Below, piece after piece: positions 4,751 to 32,245 of a stretch of 32,245 nucleotides of DNA. Both the position numbers and the translations under genes were made by a program. Origin of the DNA: a virus; the IMG/VR virus record IMGVR_UViG_3300046837_000266, positions 1 to 32,245 of that record; one strand, given 5' to 3'. Within the stretch, counting starts at the first letter, position 1. Each line of letters opens with the position of its first letter. The notes under the pieces were generated by a model, which worked only from the letters and a program-made list of their open reading frames with translations, did no database searches and was not told the origin of the DNA.

Positions 4751-5535
4751 CACAACTGGCGGTCCGCGAAGAGCGGCAATTTACCACTGACCAGATCGAC
4801 CTGATACGCCGCACGGTGGCGAAGGACGCGTCCGACGAGGAGTTGGCGCTGTTCCTGTACACGGCCAATTCACGTGGCCTGGACCCCCTGCTGCGCCAGA
4901 TACACGCGGTGTCACGGTTCGACAAGCGGCTGAACCGCAACGTCATGACCATTCAGACGGGCATCGACGGGTACCGCCTGATTGCCGAACGCACGGGGGC
5001 CTACGCCGGCAACGACGACCCTGAGTTTGAGTACAACGCCGACTCTGTGCCGACATCCGCGACGGTCACGGTCTACAAGATCGTGCAGGGCATGCGGTGT
5101 CCGTTCACGGCGCGTGCGCGCTGGTCGGAGTACTTCCCAGGCGAGGGGGCGGGCGCATTCATGTGGAAACGCATGCCACACACGATGCTGGGCAAGTGTG
5201 CGGAGTCGCTGGCGTTGAGAAAGGCGTTTCCCGCGGAGATGGGCGGGCTGTTCGTCCACGAGGAGATGGACCAGGCTGGCGGCCAGGTTGTATCAGTCGT
5301 CGATGCATCGCCCGCGCCGGTGGCGTTGCCCAAGGCGAAGATGGTCACGTCGGTCGAGCACCGGCTGTACAAGCGGTACTGCCAGTTAGTAGCGGACGCC
5401 GCGCAGTTGGGGATCGACGTGGACGGGCTCGAGTTGCCCATCACCGAGGAGCGGCTGACTGAACTGGGCAGTGAGCTGGTGGAGAAGATGGCCGCGGTAC
5501 GCGCGGAGCACCAGGACGAGGTGGAGGCGTTCTGA
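4747..5535 (+). CDS. bet: Bet/RecT-family single-strand annealing protein
   Basis: 262 residues from GTG 4747 (GTGA overlap). The Redbeta/RecT core is clear: FTTDQIDLIRRTVAKDASDE, then LFLYTANSRGLDPLLRQIHA, a TIQTGIDGYRLIAERTGAYA block, and a HTMLGKCAESLALRKAFPAE motif at residues 145-165. These proteins anneal complementary single strands and promote recombination, usually with a 5'-3' exonuclease partner. No exonuclease gene is visible next to it. It acts with the RusA-type resolvase encoded upstream. Length matches the phage lambda Bet family (about 260). The C-terminal 60 residues are the variable tail that in relatives contacts single-strand binding protein. Confidence 0.93.
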   Translation: MTQLAVREERQFTTDQIDLIRRTVAKDASDEELALFLYTANSRGLDPLLRQIHAVSRFDKRLNRNVMTIQTGIDGYRLIAERTGAYAGNDDPEFEYNADSVPTSATVTVYKIVQGMRCPFTARARWSEYFPGEGAGAFMWKRMPHTMLGKCAESLALRKAFPAEMGGLFVHEEMDQAGGQVVSVVDASPAPVALPKAKMVTSVEHRLYKRYCQLVADAAQLGIDVDGLELPITEERLTELGSELVEKMAAVRAEHQDEVEAF

Positions 5536-7509: not shown

Positions 7510-7685
7510 CCGACTACGCCCTGGTCACTCTCCGCGACCTGGCCCGCAAAATGATCGTCCTCGAAGCCAAAGCCAGAGCCGCCCTCGCCCACGGCGACGA
7601 CCTGCGCGCCCGCCAGCTCTGGTTTCAGCGCGTCCAGATCAGCACCGAACGGTCCGCAAAACTGCGGGAGTACTGGCGCCGATGA
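7506..7685 (+). CDS. Hypothetical helical protein
   Basis: 59 residues from ATG 7506 (ATGA overlap; an in-frame ATG at 7470 would overlap the previous gene). MTDYALVTLRDLARKMIVLE, then AKARAALAHGDDLRARQLWF, is a two-helix, heptad-like sequence rich in Ala, Arg and Leu, suggesting a helical hairpin. No family assigned. It is coupled to the methyltransferase gene by ATGA at 7682. Confidence 0.6.
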   Translation: MTDYALVTLRDLARKMIVLEAKARAALAHGDDLRARQLWFQRVQISTERSAKLREYWRR

Positions 7686-9058
7686 GGGCCGTCTCGCTCT
7701 TCTCGGGCGTCGGCGGCTTCGAGCAAGGCCTGCAGCGGGCTGGCATCGAGACGGTGCTGCAGGTGGAAAACGATCCCTGGTGTCTGTCGGTGCTCGCGCG
7801 GCACTGGCCGGAGGTGCAGCGCATTGACGACGTTCGCAAAGTGGACGCGGCCACATTTCAAGGACGATGCCGAGACGTGGTCGGAGTCAGACCTGGCCCC
7901 GACGCTGAACGGCTGGGAGGAGCGGCACGAGGTGCCACCGGTCCTGGCGATCAGCGAGAACCAGCGAACAATGGTCCCGATGACCACGAGGAACGCTGCT
8001 ATCTCGCTGGCTATGGTGAGGACGACCAGCCGGATGACGCCCCGGACGACGCCAGACGACGAACCGATGGCCGTGATGGAGAATCAGCGCGCGGAGGTCC
8101 GTCTACAGACCTACACGCGAGCGGTCAACTCGGGCGGCGGCAAGCCGGGCCAGGGATACCCGGCGATATTGACCTCGTCTACGGCGGATTCCCCTGCCAG
8201 GACGTCAGCGTGGCCGGTCAGCGGCGTGGTCTTTCCGGCGACCGCAGCGGTCTGTGGCATGAGTTCCACCGCGTGTTGTCCGAGCTGCGGCCACGATGGA
8301 CGGTCATTGAGAATGTTCCCGGACTCCTTTCCTCAGGAGCCGAGCCGGGCGCCGACTTCGGTGTCGTACTCAGGGGGCTGGTCGACCTCGGGTATGGCGT
8401 GGCCTGGCGGGTTCTGGACGCGCGCCACTTCGGAGTCCCCCAGCGAAGGCGCCGTGTCTTCGTTGTCGGCTGTCTTGGAGACGCGCCGCGTGCCGCGGCG
8501 GTACTGGCTGTCTGCGAAAGCTGCGGCGGGCATCCTCAGACGCGCCGCGAAGAGAGGCAAGATGCTTCCACCGAGACTGATGGCGGCATTACGGGCACTC
8601 TCAGTGGGCACCACGGCAACGTAAGGGCCGACCAGGCGTGGACGAACCAACTCGTCGCTGGATCGTTCCAGCAGAGCAGTCTGGCCGGCAAGGGCACGTT
8701 CGGCTATGACGAAGACCCGGACGTCCTGAAGCCAGTCAAGACTCAGTCAGACGGGCAGATGATCGTGATCGGCTCACAGATCGACGAGGGATCCGCTCGC
8801 CCGCTGGTCGCCAAGCCGAGCGGCTATCGCATGGACATGGAATCGGAGACGTTCGTCGCCGCCGGTAGTATGGGCGTCCGTCGATTAACGCCCAGGGAGG
8901 CAGAGCGACTCCAGGGATGGGCCGATGATTGGACGCGCTACACGGCCGACGGCAAGGAGATCCCAGATTCCCACCGCTACCGCTGCATAGGGAATGGGGT
9001 CGTCGCACCCGTCGCGGAATGGATCGGCCATCGACTGGTGGAGGCTGACACGTGGTAG
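7682..9058 (+). CDS. dcm: Dcm-type DNA cytosine-5 methyltransferase, rearranged
   Basis: 458 residues. C5-methyltransferase motifs in order: motif I AVSLFSGVGGFEQGLQRAGI (residues 3-22), QVENDPW, DDVRKVDAATF, motif IV LVYGGFPCQDVSVAGQRRG with nucleophile Cys172, motif VI IENVPGLL (Glu210), motif VIII FGVPQRRRRVFVVG near residue 250, a target-recognition region at 285-395, motif IX RRLTPREAERLQGW near 400, and motif X YRCIGNGVVAPVAEWIG near 435. It methylates cytosine at a sequence-specific site, probably against host restriction. Oddly, about 102 residues (60-161) separate the ATF after motif II/III from DIDLVYGG. These are normally nearly adjacent. That insert reads as low-complexity Arg/Asp/Gly/Pro sequence, while a neighbouring frame of the same DNA encodes target-recognition-like sequence (see 7859-8164). 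Whether the protein folds is uncertain. Confidence 0.85.
   Translation: MRAVSLFSGVGGFEQGLQRAGIETVLQVENDPWCLSVLARHWPEVQRIDDVRKVDAATFQGRCRDVVGVRPGPDAERLGGAARGATGPGDQREPANNGPDDHEERCYLAGYGEDDQPDDAPDDARRRTDGRDGESARGGPSTDLHASGQLGRRQAGPGIPGDIDLVYGGFPCQDVSVAGQRRGLSGDRSGLWHEFHRVLSELRPRWTVIENVPGLLSSGAEPGADFGVVLRGLVDLGYGVAWRVLDARHFGVPQRRRRVFVVGCLGDAPRAAAVLAVCESCGGHPQTRREERQDASTETDGGITGTLSGHHGNVRADQAWTNQLVAGSFQQSSLAGKGTFGYDEDPDVLKPVKTQSDGQMIVIGSQIDEGSARPLVAKPSGYRMDMESETFVAAGSMGVRRLTPREAERLQGWADDWTRYTADGKEIPDSHRYRCIGNGVVAPVAEWIGHRLVEADTW
7859..8164 (+). other. Out-of-frame Dcm target-recognition fragment inside dcm
   Basis: Read one frame off the dcm gene, this segment encodes SDLAPTLNGWEERHEVPPVL, then AISENQR, later AVMENQRAEVRLQTY and NSGGGKPGQGYPAIL. 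'ENQR.EVR' and 'GGGKPGQGYPA' are phrases of the variable target-recognition region found late in phage Dcm proteins. Here they lie in the early part of the gene and in the wrong frame. The length (about 306 bases) is a multiple of three, so the dcm frame survives. Interpreted as a displaced or duplicated fragment; an assembly chimera is the main alternative. Confidence 0.65.
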
Positions 9059-14322: not shown

Positions 14323-17300
14323 ATGCCTGGCACCATCCTCCTCGACGACCTGCGCTCGAGCATCGGCGACGAGCTGCGCTCCCACGCTCAGGGATTGCTG
14401 CAACTCGGCCAGGGCGCCGTCCAGAGCATCAACGATGCGATCCCCCCGCCGCCGCCGGTACCCCAGGGTCCCGACCCCAACCAGATCCTGCAGGAGCTCC
14501 AGCAGCACGCCCAGCAGGCCGCGGCCGCGGCGCAACCGGCCGTTCAGGTGCTGGGCAACGCCAGTCAGGCCGCCAGCGGCGCGGTGACGCAGCTCGGCCA
14601 GGCGCGCGACCAGGTCAGTCAACAGCTTCAGGACCACGTCGCCAGCCTCACCCAGGGCGCGCAGAACGCCGTGCAGAGTCTGGCTACCCAACCACCACCA
14701 GCCGCACCGGCAGCACCAGTGACCACGCCCGTCCTGGGTGGCCCGGCGACCGACCAGGCCAATCAACTTTCGCTGGATCAGACCGCGTCTGACCGTGTAC
14801 GTGGTCAGTCTGATGTGATCGCCAGCGCCAGCGCGAAGACGGGCGTTCCCAGCCCCGTCATCGCCGCGATCATGGACACCGAAGCGGGCGGCCCGACCTC
14901 GAGGAGCTCCCAGGGTGCCAACGGGTTCATGCAGGTACTCGACCAGTGGTTCAAACCCGGCGAAGACCCGTTCGATCCATTGACCAACATCACCCGCGGC
15001 GCGGAGATCCTGGCCGACAACTACAAGCGGTACGGCAGTTGGGACAAGGCCGCCGCCGCGTATTTCGGCTCGATCGACGCCCACGGCAACATCACCAACG
15101 CCAGCGACGCGCAGGGCACCACCGGCAACAGCTACGTCGGCCGTTTCCTGACCAACCTCGACAAGTACGGCGGTGCGGTGGGGACTGCGCTGCAGAACGG
15201 CGCCCAGACACTGGGTGGTGCGGCATCCTCGCTTGGCACCACGGCTCGAGGCGCGCTGGACACGGCGTCGACCGCGATGAACCAGTCCCAGTTCAACGAC
15301 CCGCAGTTGACCGCAGACGAAGCCTACGCCGCGTGTGGTCCCGCGGCCGCCGTCCGGTTCGCCGAACGTTTTGGCCGCAACCCCACGCTCAGGGAAGCCA
15401 CCGACCTGGCCAAGCAGGTGGGCTGGACCAGTGGCGGTGGCATGGCGGGCATCACCAGCGAGCAGCGGCTGCTCAAGAACATGGGCGTCGACACCCACAT
15501 CGTGGCGCCCGATTGGGACGCGATCTCCAAAGAAGCCCAGACGGGCAACCCGGTGACCATCAGCACGCCCGGCCATTACTTCTTTGCCGACGGCTACAAC
15601 CCGCAGACGGGCGCGTTCCACGTGGGACGGTCGGGTCTGGACCTCGTGCATGGCAGCGAGTGGATGACGCCGGCCCAGATGGAGCAGTTGATGGGCCGCG
15701 CGCAGGGCGCCCTGTTCGCGGACAACCCCGCCGTGCCCGCCTCGAGCACATCTCCCACGTCACTCGGCGGTAGCACCGGCGCAGCCAATGCCCCGATCAC
15801 GATCGGTGGCCCGGCTCCCGTGAAGGCGCCGCTGTACGTCAAGGGTGGCCTGCAGGACGCCAACGGCAACGTGGTCGCCGACCAGGGACCAACCCCGATC
15901 CAGTCGGCCGCGGATGTGCTGGGCGGCGCCGCCGGCGCGGTTGGTGAAGCGGTCGGTGGCGCGGCATCGGCACTGGGCTCGGCCGCGCAGGGTGCGCTCG
16001 CTCAGGCCACCGCGCCCGTCCAGCTCCAGCCCGGCCAGGTGTCGGCGCGCGACCAGGTCAACCAGGTGGCGAGCGACGTTCAGCAGGCCGCCCAGGGCGT
16101 GCTGGGCGCGGCACAGGACGTCAACCGGTTGACGCCTGGCACATCGGCAGTCAATGCGGTAGCCCCCGTTCTGGGTGCCGCTGCAAGCGACCTGGGCACC
16201 ACGGCTCGAGGTGCGGTCGACGCCACTGTTCCCGTGCTCGGCGGAGCGGCCAGTGATCTCGGCACCCAGGCGGAGGCGTTCGCGCGGTCGCCGGTCGGTC
16301 AGCGTCTCTTACAGGCCGCCGCGGAGAATGCCCAGGAGGGTCCGTCGTTGATCCCCGCGGGCACGATGAGCCTGTACCGCGACGTCATGCAGGTCAAGAA
16401 TGACTGGCTCCAACAGAACAACCCGCTCAACAACCTGCCGGGTGCGACGCCAGAACCAGGGCACGAGGGCGACATCACGCCCGGCGGGCTGATCGCGGGT
16501 CTGACCACGGGCATCGCCCAGCAATTCACCGACCCGTTGATGCTGGCGTTGCTGGGACCGACCAGCGGTGTGGCCGAAGCGGGCACGGGTGCGCTGAGTG
16601 GCGCGGTGAGCCGCATCGTCGGGCCGCAACTGGCGGAACGGCTGTCGCCCGGCGCGGTCAGCGTGCTCGGCACGATCGCCCAGAAGTTTTCGCAGGGCGC
16701 CATTGTCGGCGGGCTGCAGAACGCGATGTTCGAGGCGGAGAAGAAAACGTCCACGCCAGAGTCGGTCGGTCAGGCGCTGGTCATTGGCGCTGGATTGGGC
16801 GGCGTGATCGATGTGGGCGCAGCCGGCGTTGCACAGGTCGTACGCCGTCTGGGCCAGGTGCTGCTCGACAACGCCCCACAGATCAGCGAGGCCTTGCGCT
16901 CGAGGCAACCGGCACAGGCCAACGTCAATGCCGCTCTGGGTGGCGTGCCGGAGTTGGCCGCGCGTGTTCGAGGGGAAGCTGCTCCAGCACCAGAAACCCC
17001 GGTGACACCAGCCGCGGTACAGACGCCGCGCACGCCGATTACCGAAGGTGGCCTCGGGACGCCGCGCTATGACTACCCCACCGGGTCGACCCCACAGGTC
17101 ATCAGCGACACGCTGCGGACATCGGCCGAACGCGACCCGACGGGTGTAGCGCATCTGGATCAGACGGCGATGGGCTCGCTGCCGTCGCTGCCACGGCAGA
17201 CACTCGACAACGGCAAGCCCGCGCCAGCGTGGCAGGCGGGCATCACGCCACATCTGGACGACCTCCGCTACGCCCAGGACGTGGGCATGAATCAGTCGCA

Positions 17301-20300
17301 GTGGTACTCGAAGTTTGCCCAGGCCGTGGCCAGTGTGGTCGGCGACCAGAACGTGAACGAGTTCAGGACGCTGTTCGGCATCACCAGCCAGCAGACGCCG
17401 CCAACGGAAAACCTGCAGTACACGCTCGGTTTGATGCGGATGGCGCGCGAGTTCACCGCCAACGGCACCGACTTCACCGTACCGAACATCAAGCAGTGGA
17501 TCGCTGACAACCCGCGCGTCACGTCCACCGGTACGCAGGGCGCGAAGTGGAAGATGAACAGCGACCAGTTCAAGAAGGTCGCGCAGCTCTACACCACCGG
17601 CGAGGTCCAGGTCGCTACCAACGCCAAGACCAGCAGCTACGCCAGCAACATCCTCAGTGCGCTGATGAATCGGTTTGATCCCAACAGCACGATGGATACG
17701 TGGATGGCGCAGATCTTCAACTACAAGAACCCCAATCGCACGGCCTCGAGTGACCAGGCGTTCCAGGCGATGCGGACGGTGGTCGATCACCTGGCAGGCG
17801 AGACGGGCCAGGTGCCGCACCAGGCGCAGGCGGCCATGTGGTTCGCCATTAAGGGCGCCAAGGATTTCGCTGCCAGCCGGCTGGCGTCGCCAACGCTGAA
17901 GGCGATGGTCAACGATTTTAAGAATGGGCGCACGACGCTGCGCCAGGTGCTGGATCGCGCGGGAAGCGAGGGCGCGTACGCCAATCCGACCGGGACGTGG
18001 GAGCAGGTGTCGAACGACCTCGGCGTGGCCAGCGAGCTCGCCAAACTGCAGCCGCATCTTGACTCGGGCGCGCCGCGGCCGGCCATCGCCGACAGTTCGT
18101 ACCTGTACTACCCCGGCAAGGGGACGAAGATCAAAGGCGTGGCGGCGATCAGGGGTGAGGCGCCGCGTGTGAGTGGGGTCGTTCCAGAGATGACGCAGAG
18201 CCGTGCAGGCGCCGCGGAGCGTCAGGCCGCCGTCGCCGAGGTGGCATTGCCACAGTCGGTGCGCGACACGCTGCGGTACGACCCGGAGACGCGCCAGTTC
18301 CGCGAGCTCAACGGCATCCCCCATGAGGTGCAGGGCGACCAGATCCTGGTGCCTGGCGGCAACATGGACACGCTGCGGTACGTCGCGGGCAGAGTGCATG
18401 ACGCCGCTGGGAGCGAAGCTGAACCGGCGACGCTGTACACGTACCGACCCGAGTCACCGGAGCATGTTGGCTGGCAGATCGTCGACATTCCCGAAGGCAG
18501 AAAACAACAACTCCTCGACGACCTGAGAGCCTCTGGAATCGGCCACCAGGAGCTCAATGACGGTACAATTGGAGTGAACGCGCTGCCCGTCCGCAGCGTC
18601 GAGCATGAGAACGCGATCGCCGACGCTGTGCAGCGAGCGGGCGCGGCCGTGGAGGAACTACGTGGTCACGTCCAAGAAGTCAGTCCGGGACAATCAGCCG
18701 TCGCGCTTGACCGCTATGGTGCGCGGTACGGCGCCGGCGAACTCGGCCGCGTATCAGAACCAGGGCGTGGTGTCGTTGACGCCGCCAACGTCCCAAGCAG
18801 TACCGCAGGCTTCAACGCCCCCGAGTCCATCGGCCGGTTCTTCACCTCCTCCAGCCGTGCTCGGGGCCAGGCCCCAGTCCCCTTCGGTGTAAACCTCACT
18901 GGCGCCGCGGTCGGCGGCTACACCGGTAATCTGGCGACACCCCAGGACGCGTCACCCGAAGAGCGCCTCAGAAACATCGGGCTCGGAGCAACCGCAGGGT
19001 TGCTCGGCACGCATCTGATCACCCGCGGCGGTGCCGGCTCCCTCGAGCGCGCCGTCGCGGGTGTCGGCCGTGAGGGCGAAGCCGGCTTCCGCGCACCAGA
19101 GACGCGGCCGACACTCGAGGAGCAGCTCGCGCGAGCAGCAGACCGGGGTCCACGCCCCGGCGACAACATTCTCAGAGCCACCACCGAAGAGCGGCCGCCA
19201 CCCAGCGAGGAGCCAACTCGCCAGACCGTACGCGGTGTCGAGTCAGGCACGCCGCGGAACATCGGCGAGGTCGTCACCAATCCGCATCTGCTGGATGCGG
19301 CTGGTCCCGGCGAGACGCCGATGACGATGGACGAGCGCCTCGCTCACGGTGACGCGCTCGAGCAACGCTACCAGGCCAATCAGGATCGGCTGGCTGCGAT
19401 CGACGAGCAGTTGCGTAATCCTACGCAGAAGCCGGAGCGGCCGCCGTGGGGTGCGGGCTACACCAACGACAACCTGGTCGAGATCGCCCAGCAGCACAAC
19501 CAGAGCGCGTACGACCCGCTGTGGTGGGAGAAGGCGGGCCTGGACACCGGGTCAGGCGAGGTGCGTCTGGACGTCGGCCAGTCGGGTATCCGCGGCACCG
19601 GGACGCGTGAACCCACGCCCACCGAGTTGCGCGCCGAACGCAACACGCTGGCGCTGGATCAACGCCACATCGAGGCCGCCGGCGAGCAGCAGGCGAATGC
19701 GCCAGACGACGCCCAGTTCGCACGCCGCGGTCAGAGGGCGGCAGACCTGCCGTTTGCGGGTGGTGAAGAGAACGCGCCGCACGGTCCGTACGCGACCGAG
19801 CAGGCGAGCTCGGGTGCTGGGTCGCTGGCTGAAGACATCGTCACCCAGAACGGTCGCAAGAGCTACGGCGACCCGCTGAGCGGCGACGGGCTGCGCGAGG
19901 CGCCCGGCGAGATCGTGGGTACCAAGGGCGGGATTACCGGCACGGGCATCAGCGACATCAACGCCGAGGGCGCGCGCCCAGGCGCGCCGTCAGCGGAAAC
20001 GCTCAAGCGGATGCCGAACCTGGACGCGATGCTGAAGGGGGCGATGCCCGAGGTCCGCGCGCAGATCCAGCGTGCGGCCGAGGACAACCCCGAACTGTTC
20101 GACGCGTACACCCAGGGCAGGATCTCGCACGACTCGCTGGTGAACGACCTGGCCACCAAAGTGGGCATGACGCGCGAGGAGTGGCTCAAGACGCCCGTCG
20201 GCAAGGGTTTCAATCCGCAGGAGATGGTGGCGCTGCAGGCCGCGGCCATCGATGCCCAGGCACGGTCCGAGAAGATGGCCAGGGACATCGTCGCCAGGGG

Positions 20301-22965
20301 TGGGGTGGATGCGCTGTCGGACGAGCAGGTCGCGTACGGGCTGCAGGAGCTTTCCAAGAACACCCAGTTGCTGACGGTGGCCAGGGGTGGGCGCAGTACG
20401 GCGGGCCGCACGCTGGAGTCGCTGAAGAACCGATTGGACGCGACGATGGCGCGCGGCATCAACGCCAGCAACGAGCGCATCGGCGCCCAGCGCATTGCCG
20501 ACCAGGCCAAGCGGGCGACGGCTCGCGCAACGCAGCTTCTGGAAAAAACGCGCGAGATGGACGTCGAGCAGAAGACCGCGGTCGCCACCGCGCGGTCGAA
20601 CGGGGCGCCGAAGAACATCCTCGATCAGATCGCGGCCGCGTACGACCAACTCGATCGCTACAACGCCATGACGCTGCACGAGAAGGCGGACGACTTCAAC
20701 GCCTTGAAAGCCGCGCGCGATGCGGCCGCGGCAAAACGTCAGGCAGCGGTGCGGGAGCCGCCCCAGGAATTGCTGAGCGCCTTGCAGGCTGAGCTCGCGG
20801 CCGAGCGTAAGAACTTCGCCAACCGTAAAGACACCTGGGAGAACATGGCGTTCTGGGATAGCAAGGCCAACGAGATCGCCGCGGAGAAACGCAACGCGTT
20901 CCGCGGCGGGCTGTACATCGAGCAGTACCGCAAGAGTGCGGACCTGGCCGCGAAGTCGGCCGAGGCTGACGCGAAACGCGCGTTCGACCTCGAGTCCAAG
21001 CGCCAGACGCTGCAGTCCCAACGCGCCAGCAGTGTGCTCGAGGCGGTGGGCGGGCAGAAGCCGTCCCGAGAATTGCTCGCCAACTACGTCAAGGCGATCA
21101 CGTCCGACGATCCGTTAGCCGCGGGCAAGTTCGTCAAGGGCTTGCTGCAGCAGGGCTGGTGGGGTCGGTCGCAGATCGTGCGTATAGCGGGTCTCCTCAG
21201 CGCGACGGTGACGCACATGGCCAACATGGTTGGCAACATCACCCAGGTGCCGCTCGAGGTGGCTACGCACGGCATGGTGGTCGGCATTGACTGGGCGCGC
21301 GCGGCGGCCACCGGTGGTGAGCGTCAGGCGTACATGGCCGAATTGGGGCCGATGCTCGAGGCGTACGGACCAGGTTTTCTGTCCAGCATGCCCGATGCGC
21401 TCAAGATCCTGCAGACGGGCATCTCGCCCGACGACCTGGTGAACCTGAAGAACATGCGGCCAGGTCTGGCGTCCGGCTCGGAGAAACTCGATGCGGCCGT
21501 GGAAATGCCGCTGCGGTTGCTGCAAGCCGAAGACCAGGTGTTCAAGGGTGGCGCGTTCGCCATGCAGGCGAACCGTGTGGCCACGCGCTACGCGGTTCGG
21601 GAGGGGTTCCGCGGCGAGCAGCTCAAGGGACGGACGGCGAACATCGTCAAGAATTTCGAGGAGTACCCCGACCTCTACAAAGAGGCGCACGACGCGATGC
21701 TGCGGATGGTCTTCCAGGAACACCGTGACTGGATACCGTCGCCGCGCGGTGCCGCGCAGGGCGTCGTGTCGCAGCCGCTGCCGTTCATCAAGACCCCGGC
21801 CAACATCACGGCCCAGGGCGGGGGTCTGTCACCGTTCGGGCTGGCCGGCACGGTCGCCGCCGTGCGAGCCCGTGGCGCGCTGCAGTCTGCCGGTGGCGCA
21901 ACGTCAGCCCAACTCGGTCGGGCCACCCTGCTGGCGGAGCAACGCCTGGCGCGCACCGCGCTGGGCACGGCCATCGTGGGCATGGGCGTCGGGATGGGGG
22001 CCGGCACGTTCAGTGGCGGCAAGAGCATGCTCACCGGCGCGTACGACCCCAACGAAGCCAGCACGTACCCGCAGGGCTGGCGGGAGTGGTCGGTGGTCAC
22101 CCAGGACCCGGTCAGCGGGAACACGTACTACGTGCCGATGCAGAATTTCGGCGCGGCCGGCGCGCCGCTGGCGATGGCGGCCATCCTGACCGACGCGGGC
22201 AAACGCGGGCACAGTTTGCTGGACAAGGACGAGGCCGCTCGAGCCGCGACCAGCATCGGCCAGTACGTCCTCGACAACACGTTCCTGCAGGGTCTCTCAG
22301 ATACGGTGAACGTGCTGCACGATCCGTCGAGGTACGCCAACAAGTTCCTCGAGAGCCTGGTGTCGAGCTACGGTCCGTATTCGGCGATGGGCCGCCAGAT
22401 TCAGCGGGCCTACGGGGTGGCCAGCCGCAATCCGCACGACGGCTTCATGGGCCTGGTCGAAGCGATGGAGTCGAACTATCCGGGCCTGAGCGGCAACGTG
22501 CCCGAGTCGTTGACGGCCATCGGTGAGCCACGATCGCAGGGCATCTCTGGCGTCGCGGCGTTCGCTTTGCCGGTCCGAGCCGACATCCTGCGCGACGAGC
22601 CCACGCTGAAAGTCTTGCGGGACAACGACGTGCGGATTCCGCCGGCGCCGAAGGCGGTCAATGTGGGCAACGGCTGGTCGGTCGACCTGACGCCCGAGGA
22701 GCAGGACCAGTTGCAGCGATCGCGCGGCGAGATCATCCGCCAGCAGGTGGCCGCGGTGATGGGTTCATCGCTGTATAAGGACGGCGACATCAGCGTACGG
22801 AACCAGTTGTTGTCGAAGGCGATCAGCAACGCGTCGCAGAACAGCGACGTGCTGTTCACGCGGACGTTGTCGCGGGCTGACTTGCAGTCCACCACCGCGG
22901 GCGGCCGCGCGGTCCGCCGCACCGTGCCGACACCCTACACCGTGGCAGGAGAGGACGCAGCCTGA
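14323..22965 (+). CDS. Giant polyvalent internal virion protein (lysozyme-like + C39-like)
   Basis: 2,880 residues, 27% of the window. Residues 1-150 are Ala/Gln-rich helices. Residues 162-282 form a lytic transglycosylase domain: SDVIASASAKTGVPSPVIAA, catalytic Glu187 in MDTEAGG, NGFMQVLDQWF, and an 'AAAAYFGS' block. Residues 325-460 look like a C39/papain-type peptidase: DEAYAACGPAAAVRFAERFG with Cys338, and PGHYFFADGYNPQTGAFHVG with His418 and Asp423. Ala/Gly-rich membrane-like helices follow near 722-750, 818-840 and 2544-2560. A globular domain lies at about 950-1280, a charged coiled-coil region at 2050-2260, and a C-terminal helical domain follows. In podoviruses such long internal proteins are ejected to cross the cell wall and membrane. 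The gene lies between portal and scaffold, as expected for a virion protein. The C39-like call is weaker than the lysozyme-like one. Confidence 0.8.
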   Translation: MPGTILLDDLRSSIGDELRSHAQGLLQLGQGAVQSINDAIPPPPPVPQGPDPNQILQELQQHAQQAAAAAQPAVQVLGNASQAASGAVTQLGQARDQVSQQLQDHVASLTQGAQNAVQSLATQPPPAAPAAPVTTPVLGGPATDQANQLSLDQTASDRVRGQSDVIASASAKTGVPSPVIAAIMDTEAGGPTSRSSQGANGFMQVLDQWFKPGEDPFDPLTNITRGAEILADNYKRYGSWDKAAAAYFGSIDAHGNITNASDAQGTTGNSYVGRFLTNLDKYGGAVGTALQNGAQTLGGAASSLGTTARGALDTASTAMNQSQFNDPQLTADEAYAACGPAAAVRFAERFGRNPTLREATDLAKQVGWTSGGGMAGITSEQRLLKNMGVDTHIVAPDWDAISKEAQTGNPVTISTPGHYFFADGYNPQTGAFHVGRSGLDLVHGSEWMTPAQMEQLMGRAQGALFADNPAVPASSTSPTSLGGSTGAANAPITIGGPAPVKAPLYVKGGLQDANGNVVADQGPTPIQSAADVLGGAAGAVGEAVGGAASALGSAAQGALAQATAPVQLQPGQVSARDQVNQVASDVQQAAQGVLGAAQDVNRLTPGTSAVNAVAPVLGAAASDLGTTARGAVDATVPVLGGAASDLGTQAEAFARSPVGQRLLQAAAENAQEGPSLIPAGTMSLYRDVMQVKNDWLQQNNPLNNLPGATPEPGHEGDITPGGLIAGLTTGIAQQFTDPLMLALLGPTSGVAEAGTGALSGAVSRIVGPQLAERLSPGAVSVLGTIAQKFSQGAIVGGLQNAMFEAEKKTSTPESVGQALVIGAGLGGVIDVGAAGVAQVVRRLGQVLLDNAPQISEALRSRQPAQANVNAALGGVPELAARVRGEAAPAPETPVTPAAVQTPRTPITEGGLGTPRYDYPTGSTPQVISDTLRTSAERDPTGVAHLDQTAMGSLPSLPRQTLDNGKPAPAWQAGITPHLDDLRYAQDVGMNQSQWYSKFAQAVASVVGDQNVNEFRTLFGITSQQTPPTENLQYTLGLMRMAREFTANGTDFTVPNIKQWIADNPRVTSTGTQGAKWKMNSDQFKKVAQLYTTGEVQVATNAKTSSYASNILSALMNRFDPNSTMDTWMAQIFNYKNPNRTASSDQAFQAMRTVVDHLAGETGQVPHQAQAAMWFAIKGAKDFAASRLASPTLKAMVNDFKNGRTTLRQVLDRAGSEGAYANPTGTWEQVSNDLGVASELAKLQPHLDSGAPRPAIADSSYLYYPGKGTKIKGVAAIRGEAPRVSGVVPEMTQSRAGAAERQAAVAEVALPQSVRDTLRYDPETRQFRELNGIPHEVQGDQILVPGGNMDTLRYVAGRVHDAAGSEAEPATLYTYRPESPEHVGWQIVDIPEGRKQQLLDDLRASGIGHQELNDGTIGVNALPVRSVEHENAIADAVQRAGAAVEELRGHVQEVSPGQSAVALDRYGARYGAGELGRVSEPGRGVVDAANVPSSTAGFNAPESIGRFFTSSSRARGQAPVPFGVNLTGAAVGGYTGNLATPQDASPEERLRNIGLGATAGLLGTHLITRGGAGSLERAVAGVGREGEAGFRAPETRPTLEEQLARAADRGPRPGDNILRATTEERPPPSEEPTRQTVRGVESGTPRNIGEVVTNPHLLDAAGPGETPMTMDERLAHGDALEQRYQANQDRLAAIDEQLRNPTQKPERPPWGAGYTNDNLVEIAQQHNQSAYDPLWWEKAGLDTGSGEVRLDVGQSGIRGTGTREPTPTELRAERNTLALDQRHIEAAGEQQANAPDDAQFARRGQRAADLPFAGGEENAPHGPYATEQASSGAGSLAEDIVTQNGRKSYGDPLSGDGLREAPGEIVGTKGGITGTGISDINAEGARPGAPSAETLKRMPNLDAMLKGAMPEVRAQIQRAAEDNPELFDAYTQGRISHDSLVNDLATKVGMTREEWLKTPVGKGFNPQEMVALQAAAIDAQARSEKMARDIVARGGVDALSDEQVAYGLQELSKNTQLLTVARGGRSTAGRTLESLKNRLDATMARGINASNERIGAQRIADQAKRATARATQLLEKTREMDVEQKTAVATARSNGAPKNILDQIAAAYDQLDRYNAMTLHEKADDFNALKAARDAAAAKRQAAVREPPQELLSALQAELAAERKNFANRKDTWENMAFWDSKANEIAAEKRNAFRGGLYIEQYRKSADLAAKSAEADAKRAFDLESKRQTLQSQRASSVLEAVGGQKPSRELLANYVKAITSDDPLAAGKFVKGLLQQGWWGRSQIVRIAGLLSATVTHMANMVGNITQVPLEVATHGMVVGIDWARAAATGGERQAYMAELGPMLEAYGPGFLSSMPDALKILQTGISPDDLVNLKNMRPGLASGSEKLDAAVEMPLRLLQAEDQVFKGGAFAMQANRVATRYAVREGFRGEQLKGRTANIVKNFEEYPDLYKEAHDAMLRMVFQEHRDWIPSPRGAAQGVVSQPLPFIKTPANITAQGGGLSPFGLAGTVAAVRARGALQSAGGATSAQLGRATLLAEQRLARTALGTAIVGMGVGMGAGTFSGGKSMLTGAYDPNEASTYPQGWREWSVVTQDPVSGNTYYVPMQNFGAAGAPLAMAAILTDAGKRGHSLLDKDEAARAATSIGQYVLDNTFLQGLSDTVNVLHDPSRYANKFLESLVSSYGPYSAMGRQIQRAYGVASRNPHDGFMGLVEAMESNYPGLSGNVPESLTAIGEPRSQGISGVAAFALPVRADILRDEPTLKVLRDNDVRIPPAPKAVNVGNGWSVDLTPEEQDQLQRSRGEIIRQQVAAVMGSSLYKDGDISVRNQLLSKAISNASQNSDVLFTRTLSRADLQSTTAGGRAVRRTVPTPYTVAGEDAA
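15211..16275 (+). repeat. Repeated GAASxLGTTARGAxD modules in the giant gene
   Basis: LGGAASSLGTTARGALDTAS (15211 on), LGAAASDLGTTARGAVDATV (16171 on) and LGGAASDLGTQAEAF (about 16234 on) are copies of one amphipathic module; VGGAASALGSAAQGALAQA (about 15950) is a more distant copy. DNA identity is high in places (GGCACCACGGCTCGAGG is shared). The repeats flank the peptidase-like domain and may form lipid-binding helices or flexible spacers. Confidence 0.55.
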
Positions 22966-29360: not shown

Positions 29361-29369
29361 GAGACGTTG

Positions 29370-29585
29370 ATGGTGATGCAGGACGACGACAACGCACGCG
29401 GGCAGGTGGCGTACGAGGCGTACTCGGCCAATACCGGCGGCAAGTCGCTGGCGACCGGTGACACCCTGCCCGCGTGGGGCGACCTCGGCGACGCGTACAA
29501 AACGGCGTGGATTGCCGCGGCGCGCGAGGTCGTTGCGAACGCCACCGAGCCCGTCGACAGTGCAGAGCCCGAAGCCCCGGCGTGA
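29370..29585 (+). CDS. Hypothetical small phage protein
   Basis: 71 residues from ATG 29370, seven bases after GGAG (a TTG at 29367 and an ATG at 29376 are alternatives). The sequence ARGQVAYEAYSANTGGKSLA, then TGDTLPAWGDLGDAYKTAWI, matches a common short phage module ('vAYeay....ggksl.tG..lP.W..L.....aW..Aa'). Its role is unknown. It overlaps the next gene by GTGA. Confidence 0.65.
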   Translation: MVMQDDDNARGQVAYEAYSANTGGKSLATGDTLPAWGDLGDAYKTAWIAAAREVVANATEPVDSAEPEAPA

Positions 29586-30381: not shown

Positions 30382-30492
30382 ATGGCGCCGTCACTGCAGC
30401 CCGCTCCCCCGAGCCCGCCAGCGCCGTCGCTCGAGCCCGCGGTGCAACCGCCGGCGCCGGTCGTGGCGGTCGATCTCATGGGTGGAGGATGA
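30382..30492 (+). CDS. Possible 36-residue proline-rich peptide
   Basis: ATG 30382 lies four bases after the previous stop (TGAGTGATGG) and opens MAPSLQPAPPSPPAPSLEPA, followed by VQPPAPVVAVDLMGGG. Nearly all Pro, Ala and Ser, like the tails of other virion proteins here. It ends five bases before the next ATG (30497), within that gene's ribosome site. It may be real or a chance frame in GC-rich DNA. Confidence 0.35.
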   Translation: MAPSLQPAPPSPPAPSLEPAVQPPAPVVAVDLMGGG

Positions 30493-30496
30493 GCTG

Positions 30497-31522
30497 ATGG
30501 CCACGCTGCAGCAGTACCGCGCGACCTTTTCGGTCGAGGCCGGCCCGTACATCGGCCCGTCGTCGTATGAGGTCAGGGCGATGGTCGGCTCGACGACCAG
30601 CCAACTCGTGTGTCTGGCCTATCCGATCATGTCGGGCATTCCGCAGGAAGACCAGTTGATCGACCGTCCGCTGTACCGTCCCAACGCCACCCAGCCCACC
30701 GATCGCCATCGCTACGTGATGGCGTACGACCCGTCGACGGGCACCATTACGCCCGATCTGCCGTGGTCGGTCAGCCCGTTCTCGGATGGCGCGGGCACGA
30801 CGTACGGGTTCCTCGAAGCACTGACCTATTACGACATGGAGCAGTACGAGTACCTGGACCTCGCGGGCGGCGGGCTGACCGGGGTCGGCGAACGGTTCGA
30901 GGTCCTGGGTCCGTTCGACGCGCCGACGACGCACCGCTTGATCAACGAGGGATTGAAACATTGCTGGATGGTGGTCGAGGTGGCGTGTGTCCCGACCATC
31001 CTGACCACGCGGCACGATCTGAACGTGGTGGCGCCGTGGCTGATCGACAGTGGCAACGTGCTGCAGGTGGGGTTGTTGGCCAGTGGCGAGGACCGCAACC
31101 TGCAGGACCCGTTCGAACGCAGGATCATGGGCCAGGTCGAACGCGACGGCGGCCACTTCTTTCTGAACACCCAGCCGCACACGTTCAACGACGGCGACCT
31201 GATTTATTTGAGGTGTCTGAAGCGGGCGTACGACCACTGCCGGCCGGCGGGGGGCACGTTCGGCGATCAGGCGGGATTGAGCTTGGAAACCGACGAGGCG
31301 GCCATTGAGCCTGGGTGGGCCGCGTCCGCGGCGCTGGTGGCAGGTTGGCGTCAATTCGGGCATCTGCTCGAGCCGGCGGCGAACCAGCGATTGATCCGTG
31401 ACCAGGCCAGCGCGGTGGCCGCCTTCAACGACCTGGTCAGAGAACATCTCGTTGCGGACATGCCGCAAAAAAAGCTGTACCGGCAGCGCACGTTCGGCCC
31501 AGGCGTCAGGACGGCAGGCTAG
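30497..31522 (+). CDS. Structural protein of the neck or tail region
   Basis: 341 residues from ATG 30497. GGTGGAGG (30481-30488) lies eight bases upstream and decides this start over the in-frame GTG at 30482. The protein opens MATLQQYRATFSVEAGPYIG, then PSSYEVRAMVGSTTSQLVCL. The body mixes beta-rich and helical parts (RYVMAYDPSTGTITPDLPWS, then LTYYDMEQYEYLDLAGGGLT, with HDLNVVAPWLIDSGNVLQVG further on). The C-terminal 80 residues are helical and end KLYRQRTFGPGVRTAG. The order after a fibre-type gene suggests a tail or neck component. No family assigned. Confidence 0.6.
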   Translation: MATLQQYRATFSVEAGPYIGPSSYEVRAMVGSTTSQLVCLAYPIMSGIPQEDQLIDRPLYRPNATQPTDRHRYVMAYDPSTGTITPDLPWSVSPFSDGAGTTYGFLEALTYYDMEQYEYLDLAGGGLTGVGERFEVLGPFDAPTTHRLINEGLKHCWMVVEVACVPTILTTRHDLNVVAPWLIDSGNVLQVGLLASGEDRNLQDPFERRIMGQVERDGGHFFLNTQPHTFNDGDLIYLRCLKRAYDHCRPAGGTFGDQAGLSLETDEAAIEPGWAASAALVAGWRQFGHLLEPAANQRLIRDQASAVAAFNDLVREHLVADMPQKKLYRQRTFGPGVRTAG

Positions 31523-31549
31523 ATGAGTCTGTACGCGAAGCGCGAGCCT
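31523..31549 (+). pseudogene. Severed 5' end of the interrupted structural gene
   Basis: ATG AGT CTG TAC GCG AAG CGC GAG CCT, coding MSLYAKREP, starts directly after the stop of the upstream gene (TAG at 31520-31522). It then runs into the minus-strand HNH gene. The frame stays open to 32077 as an antisense shadow of the HNH gene and is not a meaningful protein. The same nine residues reappear at 32074-32100 as the start of the complete gene. Confidence 0.7.
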
Positions 31550-32048
31550 ACCGATTGCGGACGGCGTTTACTCGCTGGTAGCAAGCACGGCACAGACCAC
31601 GCGCCTGATGCGGGCGGTCGGTCTTGGCGCATTGGAGACAGGCCGGGTGCTTCAGTGACCAGCGGTCGCCAAGAACTCGCTCGTCGTGGTGCATGGCCTG
31701 ATGGGCAACGTTGGAGACAAGGTGCAGATTTTCGATGCGGTTGTCTGTCTTGTCGCCATTCAAGTGATGGACGTGCATGCCGCGGGGAATCTGTCCGCGC
31801 GCGGCTATCCAGACAACTCGATGTTCGAGGTCGCGTTTGCCGGGGGCGACCCAGACACGAACGTATCCGTCTTTCAGCGAACGTTCGCCGCCCTTCCAGT
31901 GCCAGTGCGTGGGGCCTCTTTGCTGATGTGCGGCAGGTGGTCGGCAGAGGTCGCAAAACCGGTGCCAGTACGAGGTTCCCGTGGGTGTACGCAGTCTGTA
32001 GCACGGCACCCCGCACGTCTCGCAGGGCTTTGACAGGATTGCTCGCAT
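31548..32048 (-). CDS. HNH homing-type endonuclease
   Basis: 166 residues. The N-terminus has a zinc ribbon (CETCGVPCYRLRTPTGTSYW, then HRFCDLC). The HNH nuclease centre is DGYVRVWVAPGKRDLEHRVV, WIAARGQIPRGMHVHHLNGD, KTDNRIENLHLVSNVAHQAM: the double His in HVHHLNGDKTDN and the later Asn-Leu-His are the ββα-metal site. The C-terminus carries a treble-clef-like CLQCAKTDRPHQARGLCRAC module closely similar to those of the HNH protein at 3467-4171. The ATG is at 32048 with a weak ribosome site. The stop codon overlaps the end of the upstream gene fragment by two bases. It is opposite in direction to its neighbours, as expected for an inserted free-standing homing endonuclease. Confidence 0.88.
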   Translation of the reverse strand: MRAILSKPCETCGVPCYRLRTPTGTSYWHRFCDLCRPPAAHQQRGPTHWHWKGGERSLKDGYVRVWVAPGKRDLEHRVVWIAARGQIPRGMHVHHLNGDKTDNRIENLHLVSNVAHQAMHHDERVLGDRWSLKHPACLQCAKTDRPHQARGLCRACYQRVNAVRNR

Positions 32049-32100
32049 ACGACCACATGATAAGGGTTATCGAGTGAGTCTATACGCTAAAAGAGAGCCG
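31550..32100 (-). mobile_element. HNH cassette with recoded host-gene start
   Basis: The element covers the HNH gene plus a copy of the target gene's first nine codons at its far edge (32074-32100). The left edge meets codon 9 of the severed copy (31523-31549) and the right edge continues into the rest of the gene. Six of nine codons differ between the copies (20 of 27 bases identical), but both encode MSLYAKREP. There are no terminal inverted repeats or transposase, so insertion by endonuclease-driven homing is inferred. Confidence 0.65.
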
Positions 32101-32245
32101 TGGCCGTTCCACGTGAAAGTCGACGGCGTGGGTTTTCTGATTGGTGCGCCGCAGCCGGGGCAGCCGGCGCTGGTGTCCACCAAGACGGCCGACGTCGGCT
32201 CGGTGGCGCCGCCCGACTACTCGTACGCGGGATCGAATCCGACCA
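32074..32245 (+). CDS. Structural protein, 5' part, cut by window edge
   Basis: 57 residues from GTG 32074, preceded by AAGGG (32062-32066, seven bases before). Begins MSLYAKREPWPFHVKVDGVG, then FLIGAPQPGQPALVSTKTAD, ending VGSVAPPDYSYAGSNPT at the window edge. Codons 2-7 (AGT, CTA, TAC, GCT, AAA, AGA) include several A/T-ending codons rare here, and from codon 10 on the usual GC-ending codons resume (TGG CCG TTC CAC GTG). The upstream copy at 31523 codes the same nine residues with typical GC codons. The function is unknown; location suggests a tail or fibre protein. Confidence 0.75.
   Translation, partial: MSLYAKREPWPFHVKVDGVGFLIGAPQPGQPALVSTKTADVGSVAPPDYSYAGSNPT

Follow-up and report, generated by a model that had tools for sequence, protein, structure and literature searches.

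The virus contig IMGVR_UViG_3300046837_000266 of the IMG/VR database, whose whole 32,245 nucleotides are called the window here, carries near its end an HNH endonuclease gene lying between two starts of the same candidate tail gene. In our reading, to which we give a probability of about three in four, the element is a cassette built around a free-standing HNH homing endonuclease; its target would be the conserved 5′ end of the tail gene, for which it brings a replacement start. At the level of sequence, the insertion is precise, has empty sites in relatives, recurs in other phages, differs in relatedness from the gene that it occupies, and leaves reading frames intact; what we infer is where the enzyme cuts, that it homes, that the carrier is immune, and that translation is relayed.

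The 27-nucleotide copies described in the initial annotation are present, as ATGAGTCTGTACGCGAAGCGCGAGCCT (31523-31549) and GTGAGTCTATACGCTAAAAGAGAGCCG (32074-32100), and both encode MSLYAKREP. Comparison codon by codon gave the 7 differences in 27 bases that had been reported, 6 of them silent and one the exchange of ATG for GTG as start codon, and the list of open reading frames (ORFs) together with a profile match established that the copies flank an intact minus-strand HNH gene. The stop codon of this gene had been said to abut copy 1; instead, it is created at the left junction of the cassette and shares two bases with the end of copy 1 (CTA on the plus strand, 31548-31550), so that the first inserted, non-native base is 31549. 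The insertion, proposed to be near codon 9, is thus inside that codon, after GAGCC. Since GAGCC is present on both sides, the right edge of the cassette is ambiguous between 32094 and 32099. The statement that copy 2 continues into a full gene holds in that copy 2 is the start of a gene of 651 amino acids, a length taken from the relative L034, but in the window this gene is incomplete because the contig ends at 32245.

Queries with the upstream gene and with the N-terminal peptide of the target retrieved relatives from IMG/VR, most of which have no insertion, the upstream gene directly adjoining or overlapping the target gene. The uninterrupted gene with native codons that had been predicted exists in L034 (IMGVR_UViG_3300047408_000344), whose allele, ATGAGTCTGTACGCGAAACGCGAGCCGTGGCCGTTCC, runs straight into TGGCCGTTCC / TGGCCGTTCCACG. 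Compared with L034 over 26 bases, the window has one difference in copy 1 and five in copy 2; the sequence from 32095 onward differs at 6 of 151 bases, and none of the 40 available later 9-codon stretches reaches 5 differences, so that the divergence of copy 2 is beyond chance. The near identity of both copy 1 and the downstream sequence to L034 indicates that copy 1 is native and that copy 2 arrived with the cassette. Empty-site alleles were found for three cassettes, namely, L034 for the window, L193/L070 for L066, and L086 for L078. The same pattern holds in the latter two, with 2 of 26 differences in copy 1 against 9 of 26 in copy 2 for L066, and 3 of 28 against 13 of 28 for L078.

Altogether, six phage populations, the window and five others, have an HNH cassette at the 5′ end of this gene, which is tail-hub-like. 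In each of them the HNH gene lies antisense to its target, the HNH proteins share 44 to 76% pairwise identity, and no such arrangement was seen at 120 uninterrupted target-gene starts examined among relatives. In L066 (the same virus as L069), native ATGTCGCTGTACGCCAAGCGCGAGCC is separated by the cassette from ATGAGTTTATATGCTCGCCGCGAGCCG, in which one residue differs (K to R), whereas L078 consists of native GTGAGCCTGCTCAGTAGCCGCCGTCGCC, the cassette, and then ATGAGTCTGCTGTCGTCAAGGCGCAGACCG, SLLSSRRR being encoded both times. Other cassettes with recoded starts, which the initial annotation had anticipated, are thus found in L066 and L078 and, less completely, in L206 and L164. The insertion point is the same within about 1 base in the three full cases, between GAGCC and T in the window and in L066 and between CGCC and T in L078. 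The other three, L044, L164 (the same as L165), and L206, retain no more than about 6 native bases, and their cassettes still supply the start codon.

The relatedness of the cassettes does not follow that of the genes that they occupy. The window and L044 share 94% identity in the target but 48% in the HNH protein, L044 and L066 share 55% and 75%, respectively, and the window and L078 share 27% and 55%. This discordance argues that the cassette is mobile, and by this comparison the cassettes have moved between lineages or reached the same place separately. Together, the empty sites and the discordant relatedness point to a horizontal spread into empty alleles.

In a Pfam profile search, the HNH protein of the window matched HNH_3 (PF13392) with 61 bits against a cutoff of 24.8, and the relatives in L066 and L164 likewise scored above the curated cutoff of this family. 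The gene lies outside any intron or intein: it is antisense, it has its own stop, and the Rfam search returned no intron or other RNA family at threshold, which sets it apart from group I intron and intein endonucleases. Splicing is indeed unneeded, since the second start restores the target gene. Among bacterial and archaeal genomes, no HNH relative was confirmed with the first alignment. The structure prediction of the HNH protein was poor (pLDDT, the predicted local distance difference test, of 58) and was not used. The HNH proteins of L044 (4205-4966) and L066 (4229-4969), both encoded on the minus strand, end in three C-terminal CxxC zinc-ribbon-like repeats; those of the window and L078 have one such repeat, and those of L164 and L206, whose C termini run into antisense upstream-gene sequence, have none. 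It is possible that these repeats form a modular DNA-recognition array. The HNH matches in L210 to L213 are located elsewhere, and on the minus strand of L029 (2415-2948) and L182 (4944-5429) other HNH-like genes lie near, not at, the target-gene start.

Our working hypothesis is that the cassette sits at the presumed cut site in codon 9 and that on its downstream side it carries a ribosome-binding site of its own together with the replacement start. The HNH protein would cut or nick the uninterrupted genes of coinfecting relatives near GAGCC^NTGG, repair would then copy the cassette into the cut allele, and copy 2 would restore the full target protein. The altered spelling of copy 2 would be a matter of self-protection: with native codons it would re-create the uncut site, which the phage's own enzyme could then attack. 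Ribosomes might begin at the native start in copy 1, continue along the open antisense frame, stop over the copy-2 start, and restart there. The fullest form of this proposal, a recurrent self-rescuing phage homing cassette that combines a virion-gene start, a cut-resistant substitute, and a native start with an antisense relay, and that would be a natural counterpart of home-and-rescue systems, is one that we advance tentatively, at somewhat less than even odds.

A putative immunity of the copy-2 allele to its own HNH protein would fit several features of its spelling. A copy 2 with native codons, joined to TGGCCG, would exactly recreate the uncut sequence. Between L066 and L193, none of 632 other 9-codon stretches is as divergent as the copy-2 start, and between L078 and L086 no other 9-codon stretch is as divergent without a residue change. 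The two copies of L078 encode the same residues with 12 of 21 bases different, which exceeds all 249 natural same-peptide pairs, and copy 2 of L206 is 7 of 21 bases away from any natural allele. Furthermore, the codons of copy 2 are rarer for their genomes than those of natural starts (Mann-Whitney P = 0.0014), the codon-usage score of copy 2 in the window being at about the 0th percentile among the phage's own 8-codon stretches.

The native copy-1 frame, far from being quickly stopped, remains open across the cassette for 184 codons in the window, up to a TGA at 32075-32077 that overlaps the GTG of copy 2, for 266 codons in L066, and for 185 codons in L078. In all three, the stop overlaps the copy-2 start (GTGA in the window, TAATG in L066, and ATGA in L078). 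When the HNH genes were shuffled synonymously, the frame stayed open in 1.4% (window), 7% (L066), and 2% (L078) of cases; in L164 and L206, the open frame is codon aligned with HNH, so that shuffling says nothing about it. The homologous frame of L044 is open from a TTG/ATG just past the upstream stop to a TAATG. These frames suggest that ribosomes may be carried over the cassette to restart at copy 2, a translational relay in which the native start that has been kept would have a function.

The cassette may well be mobile while the spelling of copy 2 is passive, its 5′ end coming from a divergent donor phage and not having been selected for cut resistance. We consider this explanation possible, albeit doubtful, and several observations speak for it or weigh against our proposal. 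Natural alleles encoding the same peptide differ by 1 to 11 bases over 7 codons, so that copy 2 may be the 5′ end of a divergent donor lineage, and for four cassettes a natural allele lies within 2 to 5 bases of copy 2 (3 in the window and L078, 5 in L066, and 2 in L044). L044 has a donor-like sequence tract through about codon 19, and neither L044 nor L164 has a significant excess of silent change; the distance to the nearest natural allele is, on its own, not significant (P = 0.07). The copy-2 junction matches the native L034 30-mer at 27 of 30 positions, and silent changes are often tolerated by homing endonucleases. Rare start codons also occur in several HNH-free alleles, the full duplication of the start is limited to three of the six cassettes (window, L066, and L078), and the relay frames are not fully independent evidence because the HNH genes are homologous. 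However, a passive origin accounts poorly for the rarity of the copy-2 codons, for the distance of L206 copy 2 from natural alleles, and for the silent differences between the two L078 copies, and it leaves aside that native codons in copy 2 would re-create an intact site. Rare, unusual target-gene start codons are found in the HNH-free alleles L128/L129 and L134 (e.g., ATGTCCTTATACGCAAAAAGA); these alleles may bear the scar of a cassette since lost, or they may be resistant.

It seems unlikely to us that the recoding serves expression, by providing an unfolded new mRNA start or a promoter for the antisense HNH gene. Copy 2 does require its own translation start, and TATAAT-like hexamers are seen by eye 6 to 9 nucleotides before the HNH start in L066, L044, and L078, but the predicted mRNA folding at copy-2 starts is no weaker than at natural starts (P = 0.64), and a promoter scan of the window gave no match. 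Given that the second copy is 171 bases from the contig end, an assembly artefact was also considered; we attach very little weight to it, as other contigs have the same architecture in their interior and it is shared by contig pairs from different samples (L066/L069 and L164/L165). Finally, two in-frame starts of the same peptide could be read as two ordinary genes, or a tandem duplication, starting alike with an unrelated HNH gene in between. This has a negligible chance of being correct: the single start of uninterrupted relatives continues directly into the gene, as L034, L086, and L193 illustrate, the copy-1 ORF past codon 9 is antisense HNH sequence with no kinship to the target gene, and among the relatives there is no case of two ordinary genes each starting with MSLYAKREP, the finding that the initial annotation had named as its refutation.

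Table 1. Positions in the window of the cassette, its parts, and the adjoining genes
Feature	Position	Strand	Basis
Upstream gene, 346 amino acids; stop TAG directly precedes native target start	30482..31522	+	ORF, relatives
Copy 1, 26 retained bases of the native target-gene 5′ end	31523..31548	+	25/26 identical to uninterrupted L034
Putative relay frame: copy-1 ORF through whole cassette, antisense to HNH	31523..32077	+	Stop-free in ~1.4% of synonymous shuffles
HNH_3 endonuclease gene, 166 amino acids, CxxC pairs at N and C ends	31548..32048	-	ORF, PF13392
Inserted cassette	31549..32094 (right edge 32094-32099)	.	Comparison with empty site L034
AAGGG, ribosome-binding-site-like, 7 nucleotides before copy-2 start	32062..32066	+	Sequence; inferred
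Copy 2, replacement target-gene start, same peptide, other codons	32074..32100	+	Sequence and codon usage
Target gene (651 amino acids in L034), cut by contig end; tail-hub candidate	32074..32245	+	Low-confidence model

The 651-amino-acid target protein has no Pfam or PHROG match. Its structural model, of low confidence (pLDDT of 58), resembles the tail-hub proteins P22 gp10 and Sf6 gp8 as well as many other beta-propellers, making the target a candidate for an essential-looking beta-propeller tail-hub protein of the P22 gp10/Sf6 gp8 kind. The window also encodes a major head protein and a giant gene of the internal-virion-protein type, and with the tail-hub likeness these make the virus look like a short-tailed phage. 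The giant gene (14323-22965) specifies a protein of 2,880 amino acids whose N terminus matches internal virion proteins of phages that have an endolysin domain (phrog_342), and a C-5 cytosine DNA methylase gene (PF00145) is found at 7682-9058. In L072, a gene of about 60 amino acids (4816-5002) that resembles the window ORF at 29367-29585 lies between the upstream and target genes. The only terminator-like match in the window (32099-32113, minus strand) is at chance level. Cultured phages gave no match to the upstream gene, to the N-terminal 57 amino acids of the target, or to its full 651 amino acids, and no laboratory host is consequently known.

The closest precedent is provided by fungal mitochondrial elements, the mORFs, that carry substitute 3′ gene ends and form gene hybrids in Allomyces atp6 and in Glomus atp6, atp9, cox2, and nad3 (PMC3630166). 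As in the phage cassettes, an endonuclease gene sits in a conserved gene and carries a substitute end that differs far more in DNA than in protein, while the native end is retained and stays close to that of relatives; an origin in a divergent donor lineage was proposed for these substitute ends (PMC3630166). The fungal elements replace the 3′ end in mitochondria, encode LAGLIDADG or GIY-YIG enzymes, and are often in phase on the same strand (PMC3630166), whereas here it is the 5′ end of a phage gene that is replaced, and the HNH gene is antisense. Fungal 3′-end elements being already known, what is new is the phage setting, the HNH enzyme, the 5′ end, the antisense orientation, and the possible relay. 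We found no phage version of a re-spelled gene start in the open-licence literature, the part that could be searched.

The ShiLan domain of mycobacteriophage DNA methylases is likewise a phage HNH insertion without intron or intein (PMC11855218), and its HNH protein is a distant relative, with about 33% identity to that of L066. The first 11 residues of this insertion resemble the 11 that follow the insertion site, more in protein than in DNA (PMC11855218). In ShiLan gp65 (L214), SYEPVCVAVKP stands before the HNH domain and AFEPIVVARKP after it, two versions of one methylase segment. Unlike the window cassette, the ShiLan insertion is in midgene, on the same strand in another frame, and the host frame is read through; its authors considered an intron signature and proposed no substitute gene segment (PMC11855218). 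The ShiLan methylase insertion may be a relative in kind and a culturable case of the same principle. The seg and mob genes of T4-type phages (SegF and MobE) also encode intron-less endonucleases that home by cutting alleles that lack them, the flanking sequence of the donor replacing that of the recipient (PMC2988022). They are normally intergenic and cut at a distance of hundreds of bases or more, and the in-gene insertions mobA and Aeh1 mobE split their gene (PMC2988022). The window cassette, by contrast, is inside codon 9 of its target and restores the gene by a second start. Synthetic home-and-rescue drives follow the same logic, a nuclease being coupled to a re-spelled, cut-resistant replacement of the essential gene that it cuts; as engineered CRISPR elements in insects, they serve as an analogy only (PMC7968924).

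The proposed cassette suggests how an endonuclease without an intron can reside inside an essential gene and leave it unsplit, namely, by carrying the severed part in another spelling. An essential gene is the most conserved and therefore the best homing target. Faulty repair there would probably kill the phage, which would keep resistant broken alleles from spreading; home-and-rescue drives are built on this reasoning. With six natural examples, three of which have empty-site relatives, the recognition sequence, the immunity, and the possible relay are directly testable.
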